IMG/VR virus record: IMGVR_UViG_3300036790_000525
Span: 1 to 26,520 of that record
Reading direction: 5' to 3' (one strand)
DNA: 26,520 nucleotides
Source: a virus
The first letter of the stretch is position 1. Every line of letters begins with the position of its first letter. The notes under the pieces are model-generated. The model searched no databases and had not been told where the DNA came from. It saw only the letters and a list, made by a program, of their open reading frames with translations. Positions 7,601-26,433 of this stretch are shown piece by piece. The position numbers were made by a program, and so were the translations under genes.

Positions 7601-7938
7601 CAGCAGCCTGCGAAGGTGTTGTCGTTGGCAGGGCGGCGCGCGGCGAAGTCGCCCATCACGCGGCTCACCGACGCCGGCGTGGCGAACGTCACCGTCACCG
7701 GCCGGCGCCGCAGCCGCGCGTCAGCGCCGGCCGGCGTCGCGTGGTAGACCGGCGACGGCTGCACTTCGCCCAGTTCGCCGACCTTGCCGCCCAGGCGGCG
7801 CAGGTCGCTGACCAGCTGGCTCTTCTCGGTGTGGAACGCCTCGGGGTCGAGCCGGCGCGGGCATAGCCTTTCGACGCGGGCGGCCAGCGCCTGCAGTTGC
7901 GCCTGCGCCTGGCGCGCGGTGAGCGGTGAAGCGGTCAA
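7600..7938 (-). CDS. hypothetical phage protein, 112 aa
   Basis: N-terminal helix rich in Gln/Ala/Arg (TARQAQAQLQALAARVERL), middle segment SQLVSDLRRLGGKVGEL, basic C-terminal half ending ARRPANDNTFAGC. The first codon appears to be TTG at 7938, overlapping the TGA of the recombinase gene (TTGA), so translation is probably coupled; no clear independent ribosome site is visible. Function not recognised. Confidence 0.65.
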   Translation of the reverse strand: MTASPLTARQAQAQLQALAARVERLCPRRLDPEAFHTEKSQLVSDLRRLGGKVGELGEVQPSPVYHATPAGADARLRRRPVTVTFATPASVSRVMGDFAARRPANDNTFAGC

Positions 7939-8921
7939 AGGCCCGACTTTCTGGCGGCGCTCATGGCGAAGCGGTCCGCCTCCTCGATGTAAATCCCGGT
8001 CGTCTCGGGTCGGGCGTGGCGCGCGTGGCGCTGCAGCTCGCCCATCGCGGCGCCGCCGCGATGCATGCTGGTGATGCCGCCTCGCCTGAGCGAGTGGCCG
8101 GAGAAGGCGGACGGGTCGAGCCCAATGCTGCCCACCGCGGCTTTCACGATATTGGCTATGGCGCGGCCGCTGAGCTGATTGTCATGAACCCGTCCGTGTC
8201 GGTCGATCTGACGGAAGATCGGGCCCGACAAGATGTCGGCCGCCGCGATCCAGGCGCGCAGCGCCTCGACCGGACAGCACTGTGTGCCGAAGGGCACGGC
8301 GATGACGGCGCCGCGGCCTTCCTGGTCGCCCTTGGACTGGGCGACATGGATCTCCATGCCCTCGCTGACGAACTCGACGCGGATCCGCGCCCACTCATCC
8401 AGCGACAGCGCGGCCAGCTCGGAGCGGCGCATCACCGAGGCGAAGCCCACCAGCAGGACCGCTCGATCGCGCGAGCCCACCAGGCTGTCCGGCAACCGCT
8501 TCAGCGCCCGCTTCAGGTCGTTGCCGACGAAGCCGCGCTTGCGGCGCGGCGGGCGGCCGTGCCGCCGTCGGATGCCCTTCATCAGGGCCTTCACCTTCGG
8601 GTGCCGGCCCGGCTCGGGCAGCGGCTCCGGCTTGGCGCCGCGGCAGACGAAGTTCAGGGCCGACAGGTGGAGCGACAGCGTCGACGCCGCGAGCTGGGGC
8701 GCGCGGGCGGTAAGGTAGGCTACGACGATGTCCGCCTCCGCCGGGGAGGCGCGGACGCCGACGCTGTCACACCAGCTCTGGAAGCTCGCGAAGGCTCCCT
8801 TGAAAGCGCGCCAGGTGTTCGGAGATACGCCCGCCTGGGCGTACTCGCTCGCGGCTTCCTTGAGCTGGTCCAGGAGGGCGACGTCGCGGCCATCGGCCAC
8901 GACGAGCGCCGTGTTGGTCAT
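7935..8921 (-). CDS. tyrosine recombinase / phage integrase family
   Basis: 328 residues. N-terminal SAM-like DNA-binding domain about 15-125 (NTWRAFKGAFASFQSWC, AYLTARAPQLAASTL). Catalytic domain about 130-325 with the complete set: R165 in VMRRSELAAL, K197 in AQSKGDQ, H276 and R279 in GHSLRRGG, H302 in RHARHARPETT and the nucleophile Y311 in TGIYIEE. All residues for strand cleavage are present, so it should be active. It lies in the head operon, not beside the attachment site, and the prophage also has a serine integrase. It may therefore resolve multimers, invert or excise DNA, or serve a second site. The ATG at 8921 has no good ribosome site; a 15-base palindrome sits just upstream. Confidence 0.93.
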   Translation of the reverse strand: MTNTALVVADGRDVALLDQLKEAASEYAQAGVSPNTWRAFKGAFASFQSWCDSVGVRASPAEADIVVAYLTARAPQLAASTLSLHLSALNFVCRGAKPEPLPEPGRHPKVKALMKGIRRRHGRPPRRKRGFVGNDLKRALKRLPDSLVGSRDRAVLLVGFASVMRRSELAALSLDEWARIRVEFVSEGMEIHVAQSKGDQEGRGAVIAVPFGTQCCPVEALRAWIAAADILSGPIFRQIDRHGRVHDNQLSGRAIANIVKAAVGSIGLDPSAFSGHSLRRGGITSMHRGGAAMGELQRHARHARPETTGIYIEEADRFAMSAARKSGL

Positions 8922-12282: not shown

Positions 12283-12929
12283 CGGCGCGGATCCCGCATA
12301 GTCGCCGGCGGCTGTGCTGCAGGATCGCAGCCCTGCTCGGCCTCGCGGGCTTGCAGCCACAGCGCGCGGCGCTCGCGGCGGGCGAAGGCGGCGAAGGCGG
12401 CCAGCTGGTCGCGCAGCTCGGCGTCGCCGTCGATCCTGGCCTCGAACGCCCGGTCTTCGGCCTCGCTGGCCCAGCTGCGCATGACGTCGGCCTCTTCGTG
12501 GAGCATCTCGGCCACCGTCTTCGGCCGCCAGCCTTCCAACGCGCGCAACAGCGCCAGCCGCGGCGCGACCAGCTCGTCGCAGGCTTTGAGCATCTCGCCC
12601 AGCTCGGGGAACCAGTTGCCCTTCCCGCGCCGCTGGATGAAGCGCTGCGCCATCGCGCTCACCACGTCGATCGGGAAGGCCGTCAGGGCGCCGACATAGA
12701 CGCGCAGCGTCACCTGGACGGTCTCGATCGACTCCGTGCGCCGCGCGCTCACCGCCTGCACCGCGGCCACCTCGCGGCCGACCGCGCCCGGATCGGCCGG
12801 CGCCAGATGGCTGCGGATCGCCGCGGCCGCCGCCGCGGCCGCCTCGGCCGACGGCGCGTCGACGTGGGCGACGATGCGCCCGGCGCAGTCGCCATCCAGC
12901 GAGACCCGGGTCTCACCGCTGAGCCTCAC
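12279..12929 (-). CDS. possible helicase-loader-like replication protein
   Basis: About 216 residues from the GTG at 12929 (a TTG at 13022 would add 31 residues but overlap the upstream gene by 110 bases). Ala-rich helical N-terminal part, then LTAFPIDVVSAMAQRFIQRRGKGNWFPELGEMLKACDEL, a pattern seen in lambda P-like or related phage replication partners (hydrophobic helix, then FP-x-L-x-E-M near a Cys-Asp). The C-terminal third is a long charged helix (AFAAFARRERRALWLQAREAEQG). Its place just after the replication-organiser-like gene supports a helicase-loading role, but no Walker motif is present, so it is not a DnaC-type ATPase. Confidence 0.65.
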   Translation of the reverse strand: MRLSGETRVSLDGDCAGRIVAHVDAPSAEAAAAAAAAIRSHLAPADPGAVGREVAAVQAVSARRTESIETVQVTLRVYVGALTAFPIDVVSAMAQRFIQRRGKGNWFPELGEMLKACDELVAPRLALLRALEGWRPKTVAEMLHEEADVMRSWASEAEDRAFEARIDGDAELRDQLAAFAAFARRERRALWLQAREAEQGCDPAAQPPATMRDPRR

Positions 12930-13806
12930 GGAAATCCCGAGCGAGGACGTCAACCATCGATCCAGGCTCCGATCCACCAGCGCCGGCGTCTGCGGCCCGG
13001 CGCTTACGACCAGGTCTTTCAAGGGGAAGCTCCTGTTGCTCAGCGGCGCGCACGCCGGCGAGCCGGCTGTTGCGGGCCGTCAGGATCGGCTCGACGAAGT
13101 AGCGGAGGGTGCGGATGGAGCCGGGGTTGAGGTGAGGCAGCCGGGCGCGGATCGCCGGCAGGATGTCCAGGTCCACCTCGCAAGGCGGCCCGTCGCCGCC
13201 GTCGGCCAGCCCGAGGATCACCGAGACGTCGCTGAGGCCCGGCGCGGCGCGGTCCCCCAGCGTGGCGAGCAGCAGGGTCAGCAGGCCCTCGGCGCTATGC
13301 TGCGCAGGCACGCGCAAATTCGAGCCGTCGCCCGGTGTGGTGTAGTAATCTTCTTCTTCTCTAGTCTCGTCTCCGTGACCAACCGTGACAGGCTCTAGCG
13401 GCAGTTGAATCGCCGCGTCCGCCCGCGCCTCGGCCCGCTGCCGCGCCGCCCGCTCCTCCTGCAGCTCCTCCAGCAGCCGCTGGCGCTCCTTGCGGGCATC
13501 GGCCGTCGGGTCCTTGGCCTGCCACTTGTCCCAGCCGAGGATACGCACGCCGTCGTGCACGCGGCCGTGCATGGCGTCGAAGATCCGCGTCACGGCGCCC
13601 GGCGGCCAGTGCGCGTAGTGGGCCTGCCATTCGTCGGCCCGGAAGCCGCGCAGGTCGCCGCGGTCGTCGACGACCGAGGCCGCCGTCAGCATGGCCATCG
13701 CCAAGGTGATCACCCGCTCCTCCGGCTCGCAGGCGCGCACGGCCACCCAGCGCCACACCGGGTCGGTGATGAAGCCCTCCGAAACCTTCAGCCAGCCGAA
13801 GCTCAT
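12913..13806 (-). CDS. phage replication-organiser-like protein
   Basis: 297 residues. N-terminal domain (about 1-100) begins MSFGWLKVSEGFITDPVWRWVA and includes ERVITLAMAMLTAASVVDDRGDLRG and FDAMHGRVHDGVRILGWDKWQAKD, the winged-helix layout of phage replisome organisers (lambda O or related initiators). A coiled coil of about 35 residues follows (KERQRLLEELQEERAARQRAEA), then a less ordered acidic stretch and a C-terminal helical domain (LDILPAIRARLPHLNPGSIRTLRYFVEPILTA). The ATG at 13806 overlaps the upstream stop as ATGA. It likely binds the phage origin and recruits helicase; the origin was not located. Confidence 0.7.
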   Translation of the reverse strand: MSFGWLKVSEGFITDPVWRWVAVRACEPEERVITLAMAMLTAASVVDDRGDLRGFRADEWQAHYAHWPPGAVTRIFDAMHGRVHDGVRILGWDKWQAKDPTADARKERQRLLEELQEERAARQRAEARADAAIQLPLEPVTVGHGDETREEEDYYTTPGDGSNLRVPAQHSAEGLLTLLLATLGDRAAPGLSDVSVILGLADGGDGPPCEVDLDILPAIRARLPHLNPGSIRTLRYFVEPILTARNSRLAGVRAAEQQELPLERPGRKRRAADAGAGGSEPGSMVDVLARDFREAQR

Positions 13807-14228
13807 GCGAAGACGCGCTCCCGTTCCAGCAGCGCCGCGTGGGTGGCCCTGACGTGGTCGACCAGTTCCAGCAGCCCGATCTCGATCGCCCGGGCCTTGC
13901 GCGGCGTCATGTCGTTGGAGAGCAGCGCCAGGCGCACCAGGCGCTGCAGGCCGGCGGCGGCTTCGACGGTTCCGCAGGCCTCGGCCGTGAGGTCGTCGGG
14001 CCGGCTCGCCAGCGGGCAGTCCTCCATCAGCGCCCGGCTGATGATCGGCTTGCCGCATGCAAGTTCGAGTTGATTGACCACGTCGACCGGCAGCGAGGCG
14101 CCGGAGGTGTGGTCCTGGCATTCGGCCAGGCGGGTCTTCTTCAAACGGCAGGCGCGCGAGCTCCCGTCCAGCCCGCCGTGCTCGGCGTACAGCTGGTGGG
14201 TGAGCTGCGCCAAGAGGCGCGGGTTCAC
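13803..14228 (-). CDS. CII-like phage regulatory protein
   Basis: 141 residues from GTG at 14228 with GGGAG seven bases upstream. LTHQLYAEHGGLDGSSRACRLKKTRLAECQDHTSG is a helix-turn-helix-like stretch, followed by SLPVDVVNQLELACGKPIISRALME, a pairing typical of CII-type phage regulators that decide between lysis and lysogeny. The C-terminal helices (AGLQRLVRLALLSNDMTPRKARAIEIGLLELVDHV) probably oligomerise. The gene heads the replication cluster and is preceded by a 7-base inverted repeat and a long leader. The assignment rests on pattern memory. Confidence 0.6.
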   Translation of the reverse strand: MNPRLLAQLTHQLYAEHGGLDGSSRACRLKKTRLAECQDHTSGASLPVDVVNQLELACGKPIISRALMEDCPLASRPDDLTAEACGTVEAAAGLQRLVRLALLSNDMTPRKARAIEIGLLELVDHVRATHAALLERERVFA

Positions 14229-15338: not shown

Positions 15339-15527
15339 CTACCCAAAATCGGGGGGGGGGGGTGACGTGGAAAGCCTAAGCCCCGCAGCCACGCGCGCTT
15401 GGCGCAGACCGAGCGGATCCGTCTCGAACCCGCAAAGGGGGCAGTAGCCGTGGCGCAGATCCTCGGGATGCCAGCTCGACCGGCCGCAGGTGGGGCAGAC
15501 GTAGGGCAGCCCGCCGGCGACGCTCAT
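15339..15527 (-). CDS. zinc-ribbon protein, 62 aa, with C12 tract
   Basis: MSVAGGLPYVCPTCGRSSWH then GYCPLCGFETDPLG: two CxxC pairs (about residues 11-14 and 33-36), a rubredoxin-like zinc ribbon. The ATG at 15527 overlaps the stop of the Cro-like gene as ATGA. Near the 3' end a run of 12 C on the coding strand (15351-15362) encodes four prolines, then DFG and a stop. With one C fewer the frame would continue for 12 codons past the tract (PPPPILGRGVSGSAPP) and end in ATGA at the 29-residue ORF. Probably a small DNA- or RNA-binding regulator. Confidence 0.75.
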   Translation of the reverse strand: MSVAGGLPYVCPTCGRSSWHPEDLRHGYCPLCGFETDPLGLRQARVAAGLRLSTSPPPPDFG

Positions 15528-16197: not shown

Positions 16198-16893
16198 ATG
16201 GGGCTGCTGATCCTCCTCATCGTCTTCGTGGTCCTGGTCTACATGGCCGCACGAATCGCCTTCGGCGGGGCGAAGCCGCCTCCGTCTCGCCCTCCCCTGC
16301 CGCCGCCCGTCGACATACACGAAGAGGTACGGGCCGTGGTCCGCCAGCTGGCCGACGGTGTGCAGGAAGATCGCGAGGAGCTTGCGTCGGCCATGCAGGA
16401 GTTCCGCGAGGCTGCAACCGCCGCCCAACGGTCAGCCGCAGCCCTCGCAGCCGCGGCAGCTGAACGGTCGTTCGCCCCGGGCAAGCCCCCAAGGCCGAGC
16501 CCGCGAACCGAGCTGCGCCAGGTCCTCGAGCACAAGGCCGCACCGCCGAATCAGTCGGAGCGTCTCGGCTACTGGACGACGCCGCCCGTCCCGATCGTCG
16601 AAGACGCGACGATCCTTGCCCGCGTCAGGGCGCTGAATGAGCTCGGCCAGCGCGCCGAGATCTGTTTCACCGGCTGGACCGACGAGGAGAAGGAAGAAAT
16701 GCGTGCCCAGGCCGAGGCGATCGGCCTCACCTTCCGCCACGACGTCGCCCATCACCTGACGTTCATCTGCGTCGGCAAGACGCCCGGCGCGAAGAAGCTG
16801 GAGAAAGCCGCCGAGCAGGGCGTCGCCGTGATCAGCGGCGACCAATTCGACCGCGTGGTCTGCGGCAACGAGGCCAAAGACATACCCTTCTGA
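16198..16893 (+). CDS. membrane-anchored coiled-coil protein with C-terminal BRCT-like domain
   Basis: 231 residues. Residues 2-20 (GLLILLIVFVVLVYMAARI) form one membrane helix; 24-38 is a proline-rich linker; 40-92 is a long Ala/Glu/Arg helix, likely a coiled coil. Residues 150-222 read QRAEICFTGWTDEEKEEM and CVGKTPGAKKLEKAAEQG, then VAVISGDQFDRVV, the strand-helix order of a BRCT domain: an FTG turn, an IG in place of the GG, a Thr-Pro-Gly-x-Lys-Lys loop and Ile-Ser-x-x-x-Phe at the end. BRCT domains bind phosphopeptides or DNA ends and occur in bacterial NAD ligases. Anchoring to the membrane, with the domain on the cytoplasmic side, is unusual. Cotranscribed with the repressor, so probably expressed in the lysogen. 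Confidence 0.75.
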   Translation: MGLLILLIVFVVLVYMAARIAFGGAKPPPSRPPLPPPVDIHEEVRAVVRQLADGVQEDREELASAMQEFREAATAAQRSAAALAAAAAERSFAPGKPPRPSPRTELRQVLEHKAAPPNQSERLGYWTTPPVPIVEDATILARVRALNELGQRAEICFTGWTDEEKEEMRAQAEAIGLTFRHDVAHHLTFICVGKTPGAKKLEKAAEQGVAVISGDQFDRVVCGNEAKDIPF

Positions 16894-16900
16894 GGGTATG
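16881..16900 (+). terminator. hairpin spanning the BRCT gene stop codon
   Basis: CATACCC (16881-16887), loop TTCTGA holding the TGA stop, GGGTATG (16894-16900). A T-containing stretch (TTGGATTTT) follows. Probably ends the repressor-BRCT transcript just before the rightward operators. Confidence 0.55.
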
Positions 16901-17059: not shown

Positions 17060-17410
17060 ATGCCGGTCTCGCCCACAGCGGCAGCCCACCCCACCCCCGC
17101 CGCCCGGCTCGACGCCGCCGCGGCCCTTTGGCTGGCCGAGGCGGCCGCCAGGGCGCAGGCGCTCAGCGCCGACGGCGCCAGCCTCTACATCGCGCTGAAG
17201 CCCGACCGCTTCGTCGTCCACGGCGTGCGCGGCGAGCGCTCGGCGATGCGCGAGGCGCTGTTCGCCGCCGCCGAGCCGCTCGACTCCAACCTGCTGGTCG
17301 CCGCGGTGATCGCCGTCGCCCACCAGCTGGCGGTCGGCCACACGCCGCCGCGGCCGCGCCGCCTCCCCGCCTGGTCGCGCCCCCCGCGCCGGCTGAGGGC
17401 CGTGTCTTGA
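17060..17410 (+). CDS. hypothetical protein, 116 aa, first early right gene
   Basis: MPVSPTAAAHPTPAARLDAAAALWLAEAAARAQAL..., Ala-rich helix, then SLYIALKPDRFVVHGVRGERSAM (beta-rich), helix LLVAAVIAVAHQLAV, basic proline-rich tail. The strongest ribosome site of the operon (AAGGAGG) precedes the ATG. Stop overlaps the next start (TTGA). Unknown function. Confidence 0.75.
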   Translation: MPVSPTAAAHPTPAARLDAAAALWLAEAAARAQALSADGASLYIALKPDRFVVHGVRGERSAMREALFAAAEPLDSNLLVAAVIAVAHQLAVGHTPPRPRRLPAWSRPPRRLRAVS

Positions 17411-17721
17411 GCCTGCCCGCCGACGTCATCGAGCAGGCCACCGCCGACAAGGACGGCCGCCGCCTCGCCGCACGGCTGTTCGCCCAATTGGGCCTGGCCG
17501 ACGGCGCCCTGAGCATCCCGCGGCTGGAGGCAGAGCTGGCCGTCGCGATGGCGCTCAGCGCCGGCGCCGACATCGAGGCGGCCCACCACATGGGCGAGCG
17601 TCATTGCCGCGTCTGCGGCTGCACCCAGCTCACCGCCTGCCGCGGCCCTGACGGTCCGTGCGCCTGGGTCCCTGGCGAAGACCTCTGCACCGTCTGCGCC
17701 GCCTTTCCGGAGCCGGTATGA
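17407..17721 (+). CDS. cysteine-rich small phage protein, 104 aa
   Basis: TTG start overlapping the previous stop. N-terminal helical part (SLPADVIEQATADKDGRR, LEAELAVAMALSAG), then HCRVCGCTQLTACRGPDG, PCAW and LCTVCAAF: a cysteine-rich end of the type CxxCGCTxxxACxxxxGxCxW...LCxxC, often found in phage accessory proteins and probably zinc-binding. Stop overlaps the ParB-like start as ATGA. Confidence 0.75.
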   Translation: MSLPADVIEQATADKDGRRLAARLFAQLGLADGALSIPRLEAELAVAMALSAGADIEAAHHMGERHCRVCGCTQLTACRGPDGPCAWVPGEDLCTVCAAFPEPV

Positions 17722-19202
17722 CCCAGGCCCTCACCAGCCAGGCGCTGACGCACGCCGACATGCTGCGCTGGCTGCGCGAGCGTCCCGGCGGCGCGGCCGC
17801 CGGCGAGATCGCCGCGGCGCTGCAGCTGGACCGTTCCAACCTGCGCCGCGACTTAGGCCGCCTGCAGGCCGAGAAGCACCTCGACGTCGAGGGCGACGGC
17901 ATGTCGGCCAAGGTGGCGCTGGCGGCCCGCGGCCGCGCCGCGCTCGACATCCTCGACGGCCGCGAGCGCCGCGTCGGCGACATCGCCGGCATCCCCTGGC
18001 GCCAGATCGGCGCCAACCCGCACAACCCGCGCAAGACCTTCGAGGACATCGAGGAGCTTGCCGACCTCATCGAGGCGAAGGGCCTGCTGCAGAACCTCGT
18101 GGTCAACCCGGCGACGCCCGAGCAGCTGGCGGCCGAGCCGGCCTACACCCACTACGTCAACGCCGGCGAGCGCCGCCATCGGGCGATCGGCCTGCTGGTG
18201 AAGCTCGGCCGCCGGCCGCCCGACTGGCCGGTGCCCTGCAGCGTCAAGACGCTGGACCAGCTGGCCCAGCGCGAGGTCGCGCTGCTGGAGAACCTAAGCC
18301 AACGCGCCCTGCCGGCCATGGACGAGGCGCGCGCCTTCGCCGAGCTGCGCGACGACTTCCAGCTCTCCACCGAACAGATCGCCGACCGCGCCGGCTGCAC
18401 CCTGCGCAACGTGCAGTACCGCCTGCAGCTGCTGCAGCTGTCCCCCGAGGATCAGGCCGCGGTCGCGGCCAAGACCCTGAAGCTCGAGGACGCCCGCGCC
18501 AAGCTGGCCACCCCGCGCGAGCCGAAAGCCGCCGCGCCGCCGGCGCTGGAGGGCGAGGTCGGGCTGTTCGACGAGGACGAGGAAGCCGCTGCGCCCTCTG
18601 CTCCCCCGGCGGGGGAGCTGTCGGCGCAGCCGACTGAGGGGGCCTACGGCCTCGGGCGCATTCGCAAACTGCTCGATGCCGACCCGCCGCCGGCGCGCGA
18701 GATCCGCGCGGCGCCCGAGCCGCCGGCGCCGGTGATCGTGCAAAAGCCGGTGCTGGCGATCGGCCCGGCGTCGCTGCGCTACGAGGGCGCGATCGACGTG
18801 CTGCGCGTCATCGCCGAGCACCCGGGCCAGTCGGTCGGCGCCATGTGGTCGGCTTGCGGCCTCCACGGCATGACCCAGAGCGCCATCCGCCGGCGCATCC
18901 GCGGCTTCGAGGGCGACGGCCTGGTCACCGCCTACCCGGGCCGCCTGACCGACGCCGGCAAGGCCCAGCTGGCCGCGATCGACGCCGCCATGGCCGCACC
19001 GAAGTCGCCATGGCCGGCGCCGTCCGTCACCCGTGAGGCGGCGATCGCCGCGGCCGAGGGGCGCCTGGCCAAGGCCCGCGACGCCCTGCGCGAGGGCGAG
19101 CCGCTCATCACCGACATCCGCCGTGTCGCCCACGCCGAGTGCTGGGCGCCCGCGCCGGCGGCCGACTTCCTGGAGCTGGTGCTGGAGGCGCTGCGCGCAT
19201 GA
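17718..19202 (+). CDS. ParB-like nuclease/partition-type protein with winged-helix ends
   Basis: 494 residues. Residues about 10-75: a winged helix (LRWLRERPGGAAAGEIAAAL, LQLDRSNLRRDLGRLQAE). ParB domain about 88-250: WRQIGANPHNPRKTFEDIEELADLIEAKGLLQNLVV (box I-like), GERRHRA at 150-156 (box II, CTP/phosphate site), ENLSQRALPAMDEARAFAEL at 191-210 (box III), then a HTH (LSTEQIADRAGCTLRNVQYRLQLLQLS). A Pro/Ala linker with an acidic patch near 280-345. A second winged helix about 352-420 (YEGAIDVLRVIAEHPGQ...). No ParA is present, so a transcription or DNA-clamp role is more likely than plasmid-style partition. Confidence 0.88.
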   Translation: MTQALTSQALTHADMLRWLRERPGGAAAGEIAAALQLDRSNLRRDLGRLQAEKHLDVEGDGMSAKVALAARGRAALDILDGRERRVGDIAGIPWRQIGANPHNPRKTFEDIEELADLIEAKGLLQNLVVNPATPEQLAAEPAYTHYVNAGERRHRAIGLLVKLGRRPPDWPVPCSVKTLDQLAQREVALLENLSQRALPAMDEARAFAELRDDFQLSTEQIADRAGCTLRNVQYRLQLLQLSPEDQAAVAAKTLKLEDARAKLATPREPKAAAPPALEGEVGLFDEDEEAAAPSAPPAGELSAQPTEGAYGLGRIRKLLDADPPPAREIRAAPEPPAPVIVQKPVLAIGPASLRYEGAIDVLRVIAEHPGQSVGAMWSACGLHGMTQSAIRRRIRGFEGDGLVTAYPGRLTDAGKAQLAAIDAAMAAPKSPWPAPSVTREAAIAAAEGRLAKARDALREGEPLITDIRRVAHAECWAPAPAADFLELVLEALRA

Positions 19203-24486: not shown

Positions 24487-24734
24487 TGCGCTTCATGTGC
24501 CCGTACTGCGGCGCTCTCAAGGACCGCCTGCGACTGGCGGGGGCCATCGATCACGATGGCCCGCCGCTGGCCTTCGTGGTTTGCAACAATTGCTTGGGAA
24601 CCATCGCGTTCGCGCCGAACGGCGATCCCGCGACAGTGCGTATGGCGACCGACGAAGAGCTGGCGGAGATCGTCGCAACCAAACTCGGGAAGCATTCGTT
24701 CGAGCACGCGCTGCTTAAAAGGGCCGGCGCCTGA
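24486..24734 (+). CDS. zinc-ribbon-like small protein, 82 aa
   Basis: MRFMCPYCGALKDRLRLAG, then VVCNNCLGTIAF: CxxC pairs at about residues 5-8 and 34-37, the arrangement of a compact zinc ribbon, followed by an acidic helix (ATDEELAEIVATKLG) and a basic end. TGATG overlap with the genes on both sides. Unknown target. Confidence 0.7.
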   Translation: MRFMCPYCGALKDRLRLAGAIDHDGPPLAFVVCNNCLGTIAFAPNGDPATVRMATDEELAEIVATKLGKHSFEHALLKRAGA

Positions 24735-26356
24735 TGCGCGCCGCCCTCTACGCCCGCTACTCGGACGACCTGCAGCGGCCGGCGTCGATCGTCGACCAGG
24801 TGGCGCTTTGCCGGCGCGTCGCCGAGCAGATCGGCGCCGAAGTGGTGGAGATCTACACCGACGCGGCGATCAGCGGCTTCGCGTCGGCCAACCGGCCGGG
24901 GCTCCTGGCGCTGCTCGAGGCGGCCCATCGGCGCCAGTTCGACGTGGTCATCGCCGAGGCGATCGACCGGCTGTCGCGCGGCGGCTCGGGCGCCTGGTCG
25001 ATCTACGAGGACATGCAGACGCTCGGCATCGAGATCGTCACGGCCGAGGAGCAGACCGTCGACGAGATGAAGGTCGGCAGCAAGGCGATGTTCAGCGCCA
25101 TGTTCCTCAAGGGCCTGGCCGCCAAGACCCGCCGGGGCCTCGCCGGCGTCGCCCGCGAGGGCCGCCACGCCGGCGGCCGCGTCTACGGCTACAAGCGGGT
25201 GATCGGCTTCGACGCCGCCGGCGAGCCGATCCGCGGCCGCATCGAGATCGAGGAGGCGGAGGCCGAGGTCGTGCGGCGGATCTTCCGCGAGTACGTCGCC
25301 GGCGCGTCGCCGCGGGCGATCGCCGCCCGGCTGAACGCCGAGGGCGTGCCCGGCCCGCGCGGCGGCCCCTGGAACGCCTCGACCATCAACGGCAACGCCG
25401 CGCGCGGCAACGGCGTCCTGCACAACCAGCTCTACAGCGGCTGGATCGTCTGGGGCCGGCAGACCTGGGTGAAGGACCGCCGCACCGGCAAGCGGCGCTC
25501 GCGCAAGGCCGACCCGGCGAACGCCGTGCGCACCCGCGTGCCGGAGCTGCAGATCGTCGACGACCCGCTGTGGGCAGCCGCGCAGGCCGCCTATGCGCAG
25601 GCATCGGCCGGGCCGATGCCCTCCGCGGCCAGGCGCCCGAAGCACCTGCTGTCGGGCCTGGTCCGCTGCGGCGTCTGCGACGGCGCCATGACCATGCAGG
25701 GTCCGGACCGGCGCTTCGTCTGCATCACCCGCAAGGAGCGCGGGATCGCCGGCTGCAGCAACGGTCGCACCGCCAAGGCGCCCGACATCGAGGCGCGGAT
25801 CCTGGTGGTGCTGCGCGAGGAGCTGCTGCACCCGGCGGCGATCGCCGCGGCCGTCGAGGCCTACCGCGCCCACGCTGACGCCGCCCGCCACGCCAGCCAG
25901 CGCCGGCGCAGCGAGCTGGAGCGCGAGCTGGGCGAGGCCAAGCGCCGCGCTGCACGCCTGGTCGACCAGCTGGCCGACGGCGCGGTCACCGGCCGGGCGA
26001 TCGCCGACCGCCTGGCCGAGCTGGAGGCGAGGCGCGCGGAACTGGAGGGCGACCTGGCGCGCCTCGAGGCGGCCGCGGCCGGGCAGCTCAGGGTGCTGCA
26101 CCCGCGCGCGGCAGAGTTCTATCGGGAGAAGGTGGAGGCGCTGAAGGCCGCGCTCGAGGCGAGCGGGCCGGATGGCCTGGAGCGGGACGAAGCCCGCCAG
26201 GCGTTCCGCCAGGTCGTGCGCGCCGTCATGGTCTACCCGCTGGCTGAGCGGGGACAGTACGAGCTGGCGATTGCAGGTGATTTGGCCGACCTCCTCCGGC
26301 TCTCGCCGGAGGGGCCTGCTTCGCTTGCGGCTTCCCCCCGGTACTTAGGGGGAAGT

Positions 26357-26371
<15 letters not shown>
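24734..26371 (+). CDS. int: large serine recombinase (phage integrase)
   Basis: 545 residues. Catalytic N-terminal domain about 1-145: ALYARYSDD with nucleophile S10, R8, then SANRPGLLALL (R54) and AIDRLSRGG (D78, R79). Recombinase domain about 145-290 (GGRVYGYKRVIGFD). Zinc ribbon about 305-345 (LVRCGVCDGAM, CSNG). Coiled coil about 385-460 (RRRSELERELGEAKRRAARLVDQL). C-terminal tail short. Length is usual for the class. Start TGATG-coupled to the previous gene, which is unusual for an integrase since it ties expression to the early operon. The last codons and the stop fall inside the tRNA gene, so the attachment site overlaps the coding end. Confidence 0.94.
26293..26312. repeat. inverted repeat near the integrase 3' end
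   Basis: CCTCCGGC (26293-26300), TCTC, GCCGGAGG (26305-26312): perfect 8-base arms. Followed by a second repeat CTTCCCCC (26331-26338) and GGGGGAAG (26348-26355). Both lie within the last codons of the integrase, about 5-65 bases before the tRNA. They may be part of the attachment site or a terminator for the early operon. Confidence 0.45.
26331..26355. repeat. second inverted repeat next to the tRNA 3' end
   Basis: CTTCCCCC and GGGGGAAG, arms of 8 with a 9-base spacer, ending two bases from the tRNA CCA position (26357). Confidence 0.45.

Positions 26372-26433
<62 letters not shown>

Follow-up and report, generated by a model that had tools for sequence, protein, structure and literature searches.

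Organization of the immunity region

The window, i.e. the whole stretch of viral DNA that was analysed (26,520 nucleotides; IMG/VR record IMGVR_UViG_3300036790_000525), carries an immunity region in which the order cro - operator - repressor - cargo gene - two operators matches the order cro - OR - cI - rexA - rexB - OL of lambda (Table 1). The Cro-like protein scored above the cut-off with the Pfam models HTH_31 (32.1 bits) and HTH_3 (26 bits) and was assigned to the transcription regulators in PHROG. The repressor gave a weak match to HTH_31 (18.2 bits, under the cut-off), and it shares 42% identity with the "CI repressor" of both Pseudanabaena phage Pam1 and Microcystis phage Mae-JY04. Relatives that are 41-54% identical to it were present in 11 IMG/VR contigs; the plasmid collection held no relative, and the phylum samples (398 genomes) gave only weak matches.

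Three copies of an operator with the consensus TTTGGAwwwTCCAAA bracket the repressor-BRCT unit, while 0.08 matches are expected by chance in the whole window. The first-pass annotation had placed the cargo gene in a rex-like position between the repressor and the "rightward early promoter", and the operators bear out this position; the promoter so named, however, is equivalent to lambda OL/PL, on the side away from cro. A promoter scan detected no sigma-70-type promoter in the immunity region, so the case for expression of the cargo gene is built on gene order: because the gene lies between the repressor and the operator pair away from cro, we infer that repressor and cargo are expressed together in the lysogen. 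The hairpin over the cargo stop codon came from a scan that found 4 terminator-like sites in total where 1.4 would be expected by chance.

Further to the right of the immunity region there are ParB-like, HNH, methyltransferase and serine-recombinase genes. The window also carries an integrase gene of the phrog_1 class (7935-8921, minus strand) and a second one of the phrog_95/DNA invertase type (24734-26371, plus strand), which ends within the tRNA-Met gene at 26357-26433; this tRNA gene may serve as an attachment site. A run of about 12 G residues (15350-15361) is located downstream of the leftward Cro-like gene.

Table 1. Features in and around the immunity region (positions refer to the window)
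Feature	Position	Strand	Remarks
Leftward early gene, weakly like phage replication initiation protein	12913-13851	-	phrog_3729, 1.2e-5
Cro-like HTH protein, 79 aa	15524-15763	-	Start of leftward early operon; divergent from repressor
OR-like operator palindrome, TTTGGATTTTCCAAA	15776-15790		Between cro-like gene and repressor
Repressor-like HTH protein, 109 aa	15861-16190	+	No self-cleavage domain
Cargo gene, 231 aa	16198-16893	+	Membrane helix, proline-rich linker, long helix, BRCT
Transmembrane helix (predicted), residues 2-22	16201-16263	+	AlphaFold2 and hydropathy
Long helix (modelled), residues 40-91 (52 residues)	16315-16470	+	AlphaFold2
BRCT domain, residues 154-226	16657-16875	+	Pfam, AlphaFold2, Foldseek, VIA-align, PDB profile search
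Hairpin over cargo stop codon, CATACCCTTCTGAGGGTATG	16881-16900	+	Possible weak terminator of repressor-cargo mRNA
Operator 2, CTTGGATTTTCCAAA	16902-16916		First site of OL-like pair; 8 nt past cargo stop
Operator 3, TTTGGAATAATCAAA	16937-16951		35 nt from operator 2
Start of rightward early operon	17060-19202	+	Under operator pair; two small ORFs, then ParB-like gene (17718-19202)

The cargo gene and the architecture of its product

The open reading frame at 16198-16893 was confirmed at exactly the coordinates first given for it, and it starts 7 nt past the stop codon of the repressor gene. Since GC-rich DNA gives many spurious open reading frames on both strands, we considered whether the frame is mis-called or its arrangement due to chance. 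However, its GC content at the three codon positions (0.73/0.48/0.84) has a coding-type profile like that of the repressor gene (0.72/0.47/0.83), its BRCT domain scored above the Pfam cut-offs and was modelled by AlphaFold2 with a pLDDT of about 95, and the operators follow 8 nt past its stop codon. These data contradict a chance origin, which we regard as highly improbable.

The annotated single membrane helix is upheld both by hydropathy (Kyte-Doolittle 2.82 across 19 residues) and by the AlphaFold2 model, which was built with 29 BRCT relatives in the alignment. The helix is preceded by just Met-Gly and followed by basic residues, and because of the positive-inside rule the BRCT domain is expected on the cytoplasmic side. 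The model also predicts a single long helix where a coiled coil of about 50 residues had been proposed; the length of the helical stretch stands, while the heptad signal is marginal (116 of 2000 shuffles were equally good) and a coiled coil is not established.

In a whole-protein search of viral contigs no full-length relative of the cargo protein was detected, and matches in the phage and plasmid collections were confined to the BRCT part. Moreover, Pfam gave no match to a WYL domain in the cargo protein; the model has the membrane helix and the long helix instead.

The BRCT domain and its phosphate pocket

BRCT domains are best known for reading phosphate marks in eukaryotic DNA repair. The C-terminal domain of the cargo protein, annotated as BRCT-like, is a genuine BRCT domain. 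Residues 155-215 matched PF00533 with 25.0 bits (cut-off 21.3) and PF12738 (PTCB-BRCT) with 28.2 bits (cut-off 22), and AlphaFold2 modelled residues 154-226 as beta-alpha-beta-beta-alpha-beta-alpha (pLDDT about 95), i.e. the BRCT fold. The best Foldseek match was the RFC1 BRCT domain (4.4e-5) followed by LigA, while VIA-align gave Z scores of 10.1 for Rad4, 9.9 for TopBP1 and 9.6 for RFC1. In a profile search against PDB sequences LigA (2.1e-7) and RFC1 (1.6e-6) were recovered, and these two are the nearest solved relatives.

The RFC1 BRCT domain uses T415, G416, R423 and K458 to bind a DNA end through its 5'-phosphate. Profile alignment to RFC1 showed that all four pocket positions are kept in the cargo protein, as T158, G159, K165 and K200, and in an alignment of 30 BRCT rows, the remaining rows being 23-37% identical to the cargo protein, T was present in 30 of 30, G in 30 of 30, K or R in 29 of 30 and K in 30 of 30. 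Because the same pocket takes phosphopeptides in other BRCT domains, the expected class of ligand would be a phosphate, and not DNA specifically. RFC1 is a clamp loader and LigA a ligase, whereas the BRCT domain of the cargo protein has the same pocket residues but is membrane tethered and carries no enzyme.

An exchangeable slot in phages with related repressors

We asked how the region behind the repressor is built in phages with related repressors. Scoring covered the eight loci for which the search gave both an upstream palindrome and downstream copies (the window, L084, L085, L087, L089, L090, L094 and L201); in all eight a palindrome precedes the repressor, and the 1.5 kb behind the repressor contain exactly two copies, spaced 34-35 nt apart. 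For each locus none of 300 random sequences contained such an operator pair. The palindrome search gave no such operator set in L086, L088 and L093, and L091 and L092 end too early to be judged.

The stretch between repressor and operator pair differs among these phages. The pair begins 9-10 nt past the repressor in L085 and L094, where the slot is empty, and 0-8 nt past the stop codon of a cargo gene in the window, L084, L087 and L090. The cargo is a WYL-TerB fusion in L084 (8318-9097; WYL 1.4e-10, and TerB 8e-4, which is under its cut-off), a small membrane-helix protein in L087 and a protein of the Rap1a family with a signal-peptide-like start in L090 (2708-3022; 6.9e-20). No cargo was identified in L089 and L201, where the distance from repressor to pair is 518 and 173 nt, respectively. 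The corresponding slot of Pam1 (L202:4284-4877) holds an unannotated membrane-helix protein with a proline stretch, flanked on both sides by operator-like repeats as judged by eye. Hence the operator-bounded slot is a site for exchangeable cargo, the expression of which would be linked to the repressor as judged from gene order. It offers a route to more exclusion genes through inspection of whatever separates a repressor of this kind from its 34-35-nt operator pair. Pam1 and Mae-JY04, deposited as cyanophages, have the repressor and slot layout in common with the window phage.

A family of repressor-linked BRCT proteins

Scans with BRCT alignments identified about 150 IMG/VR contigs each and 18 bacterial genomes; for the latter a four-sequence alignment was used, the eight-sequence one being too diverse as a query. 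In the usual family member, which is 155-190 aa long, a linker joins an N-terminal WYL-like domain to the BRCT domain, and the BRCT domain of the cargo protein matched the corresponding PHROG family, phrog_2561, with 2.1e-15. The WYL match was under the Pfam cut-off in the members tested. For the Billgrantia relative, however, AlphaFold2 gave a confident beta-rich domain at the WYL position, and the model matches PafBC, a DNA-damage activator that is triggered by single-stranded DNA on its WYL domains (PMC11804915).

BRCT genes recur next to prophage repressors: when the gene directly upstream of family members was examined, 22 of 54 products matched Phage_CI_repr, 20 HTH_3 and 8 Peptidase_S24 (the groups may overlap), and in Vibrio phage PV94 the gene starts 26 nt after the CI repressor. 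Of the outcomes that the first-pass annotation had listed as refuting its reading, neither a fold unlike BRCT nor a lack of conservation next to repressors was observed. The cargo protein and the WYL-BRCT proteins thus have in common the C-terminal BRCT domain, with the motif FTG[FW]...C.G..(A/P)G..K, and a gene placed directly after the repressor (usually so in the WYL-BRCT proteins), while the cargo protein differs in that one membrane helix and the long helix take the place of the WYL domain.

A link to the membrane was predicted in several other family members. N-terminal hydrophobic helices are fused to the protein in six relatives (L122, L131, L170, L173, L177 and L178), the genes of which lie directly after a repressor or close to one. 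These anchored forms, from Billgrantia, Pasteurellaceae and two IMG/VR phages, resemble the cargo protein in the succession of hydrophobic helix or helices, linker and C-terminal BRCT domain; they differ from it in having a WYL-like domain and, in the one modelled (L170, three hydrophobic helices), more than one hydrophobic helix. In other cases (pENTAS02 (L203), L019, L114, L116, L129 and L118) a separate gene for a membrane protein is situated between the repressor and the BRCT gene. In pENTAS02, a phage-plasmid of Enterobacter soli, the BRCT protein (P0008) is preceded by one whose hydrophobic helix is C-terminal (P0007). As far as can be predicted from these sequences, membrane attachment is recurrent in the family, not universal, and on the family tree the membrane-anchored state has to change three or more times. 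The BRCT domain of the window forms a long branch in this tree, such that its placement is not firm.

The pENTAS02 genes are arranged in a row of repressor, P0007, P0008 and integrase (L203:3346-4858), and relatives of P0007 are encoded in L019, L107, L114, L116 and L129. A reversed order, with an N-terminal BRCT domain, a WYL-like stretch and an unknown C-terminal domain, was seen in L116 (5971-6855) and L129 (5992-6879).

Location at ssrA in E. coli prophages

A sequence match to the WYL-BRCT gene (product WP_000391795) was present in 172 of 5426 complete E. coli genomes, so that its function could be studied in laboratory strains. As read in two of the 172 genomes and in three phage or plasmid records, the gene is the last one of E. 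coli P2-like prophages at ssrA, between ogr and the attachment site. P2-like phages bear antiviral hotspots, of which one that has been described is situated elsewhere, between gpA and gpQ (PMC9122126). In L206 (6001-6483) the gene is directly 3' of ssrA; it is often labelled hypothetical protein or DNA ligase, and in E. coli P2-like prophages the product also bears the label "BRCT domain-containing protein". We rejected "DNA ligase", which is also the PHROG label of the relatives, as a function; the BRCT part alone is in common. In Aestuariicella an AbiGi-antitoxin-like gene (L167:6100-6654) is located upstream of the WYL-BRCT gene. The ssrA location and the AbiGi-like neighbour favour an accessory function expressed in the lysogen over a fixed partner of one repressor.

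These contexts bear on the possibility that the cargo protein modulates the repressor, i.e. that it senses DNA damage (ends or gaps) and in response influences either the repressor or the lytic switch, rendering the prophage inducible despite a non-cleavable repressor. The gene is directly 3' of the repressor gene with a gap of 7 nt, the repressor has 109 residues without an S24 domain, and in relatives the BRCT domain is fused to a WYL domain with a model that matches PafBC. Precedents exist: RexA of lambda biases the lytic switch (PMC11077077), and Hex of bacteriophage 434, as the cargo product would be a small protein from the repressor mRNA and the same slot, protects its own repressor and blocks RecA-driven cleavage (PMC3564112), although the repressor of the window, unlike that of 434, has no cleavage domain. 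On the other hand, members of the family are found both with self-cleaving S24 repressors (8 of 54) and with repressors of unrelated families, those of E. coli lie at ssrA, remote from the repressor, and next to the same type of repressor some slots are empty while others carry unrelated cargo. The self-cleaving repressors beside relatives and the ssrA location argue against a role purely as an induction sensor, and a membrane tether is hard to reconcile with action on a DNA-bound repressor. Taken together, this weakens the earlier suggestion that the protein couples repressor state to DNA damage and so offsets the missing cleavage domain, and we consider modulation of the repressor unlikely. 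The idea that the gene owes its existence to a repressor unable to cleave itself is likewise unsupported, given the Peptidase_S24 repressors among the upstream neighbours.

Comparison with Rex systems

A rex-type slot and a defence gene pair behind a CI-like repressor are already known: lambda RexAB is the precedent in the same slot (PMC11077077), and in RexABpp of the P. putida prophage P1 the defence genes are downstream of a CI-like repressor (PMC12894663). As in these systems, the cargo gene lies between the repressor and the operators away from cro, and as in RexA/RexB one part of the product is DNA-related and one part is in the membrane. Transcription together with the repressor has been shown for lambda rex and, judging by gene order, would apply to the cargo gene. 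The window slot differs from RexAB in having one cargo gene and one protein instead of two; moreover, RexB has four membrane helices, and the single helix of the window protein does not correspond to a RexB-type channel, while its BRCT domain stands against the RexA fold in Rex. The cargo protein had no match to Rex in Pfam or PHROG, although a missing match is weak evidence.

In the literature searched, which included few subscription journals, we found nothing relevant on BRCT domains together with prophage repressors, WYL domains or superinfection. No description of a BRCT cargo in the slot, of the repressor-linked WYL-BRCT family or of its membrane-anchored forms was found there.

Possible function of the cargo protein

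We suggest, with moderate confidence, that the gene is cargo (a moron) in a rex-like slot, made with the repressor, and that it most likely acts as a phosphate-triggered superinfection-exclusion or abortive-defence factor. According to this proposal repressor and cargo would be produced together in the lysogen, the cargo product being a single-pass protein of the inner membrane, in which the long helix would hold the BRCT domain, with an intact pocket of the RFC1/LigA type, over the cytoplasm. The domain would then recognize a phosphate-bearing target that arises when a rival phage infects, whether a phosphoprotein or DNA with a 5'-phosphorylated end or gap; the tether would restrict recognition to the inner membrane face or relay a signal to the membrane. 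The first-pass annotation had raised the exclusion of incoming phages and the sensing of DNA ends, and either remains plausible. Points against the proposal are the lack of a full-length relative in the collections searched, the long branch of the BRCT domain in the tree, the missing WYL domain that most relatives have, and the fact that cargo of such a slot may have other uses, as 434 Hex does in protecting its repressor.

An alternative is that the protein is a lysogenic-conversion or DNA-maintenance factor without an anti-phage role, e.g. a membrane tether for repair or for prophage DNA, or a neutral moron. Most BRCT domains work in DNA repair and replication, and the closest ones here are those of LigA and RFC1; the slot cargo in relatives is also diverse, and includes the Rap1a-family protein. 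However, no catalytic repair domain is attached to the BRCT domain, and a neutral passenger is at variance with the recurrence next to repressors in many unrelated prophages and with the strict conservation of the phosphate pocket. We regard this alternative as doubtful.

Within the preferred reading of an exclusion or defence factor, a more specific version is that of a one-protein Rex-like factor, in which the membrane-tethered BRCT domain senses 5'-phosphorylated ends or gaps in the injected or replicating DNA of a rival phage; this we put forward only tentatively. If true, the end-sensor would belong to a broad, undescribed class of repressor-linked prophage proteins, often of the WYL-BRCT type. 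A widespread prophage family with a BRCT domain and intact pocket in the repressor operon, often with WYL and in several cases anchored, would represent a new kind of sensor expressed by lysogens. In PADLOC the cargo protein matched PDC-S48 in the BRCT part only (profile positions 325-405 of 411), short of a full-length match, and this library entry is itself a candidate defence family.
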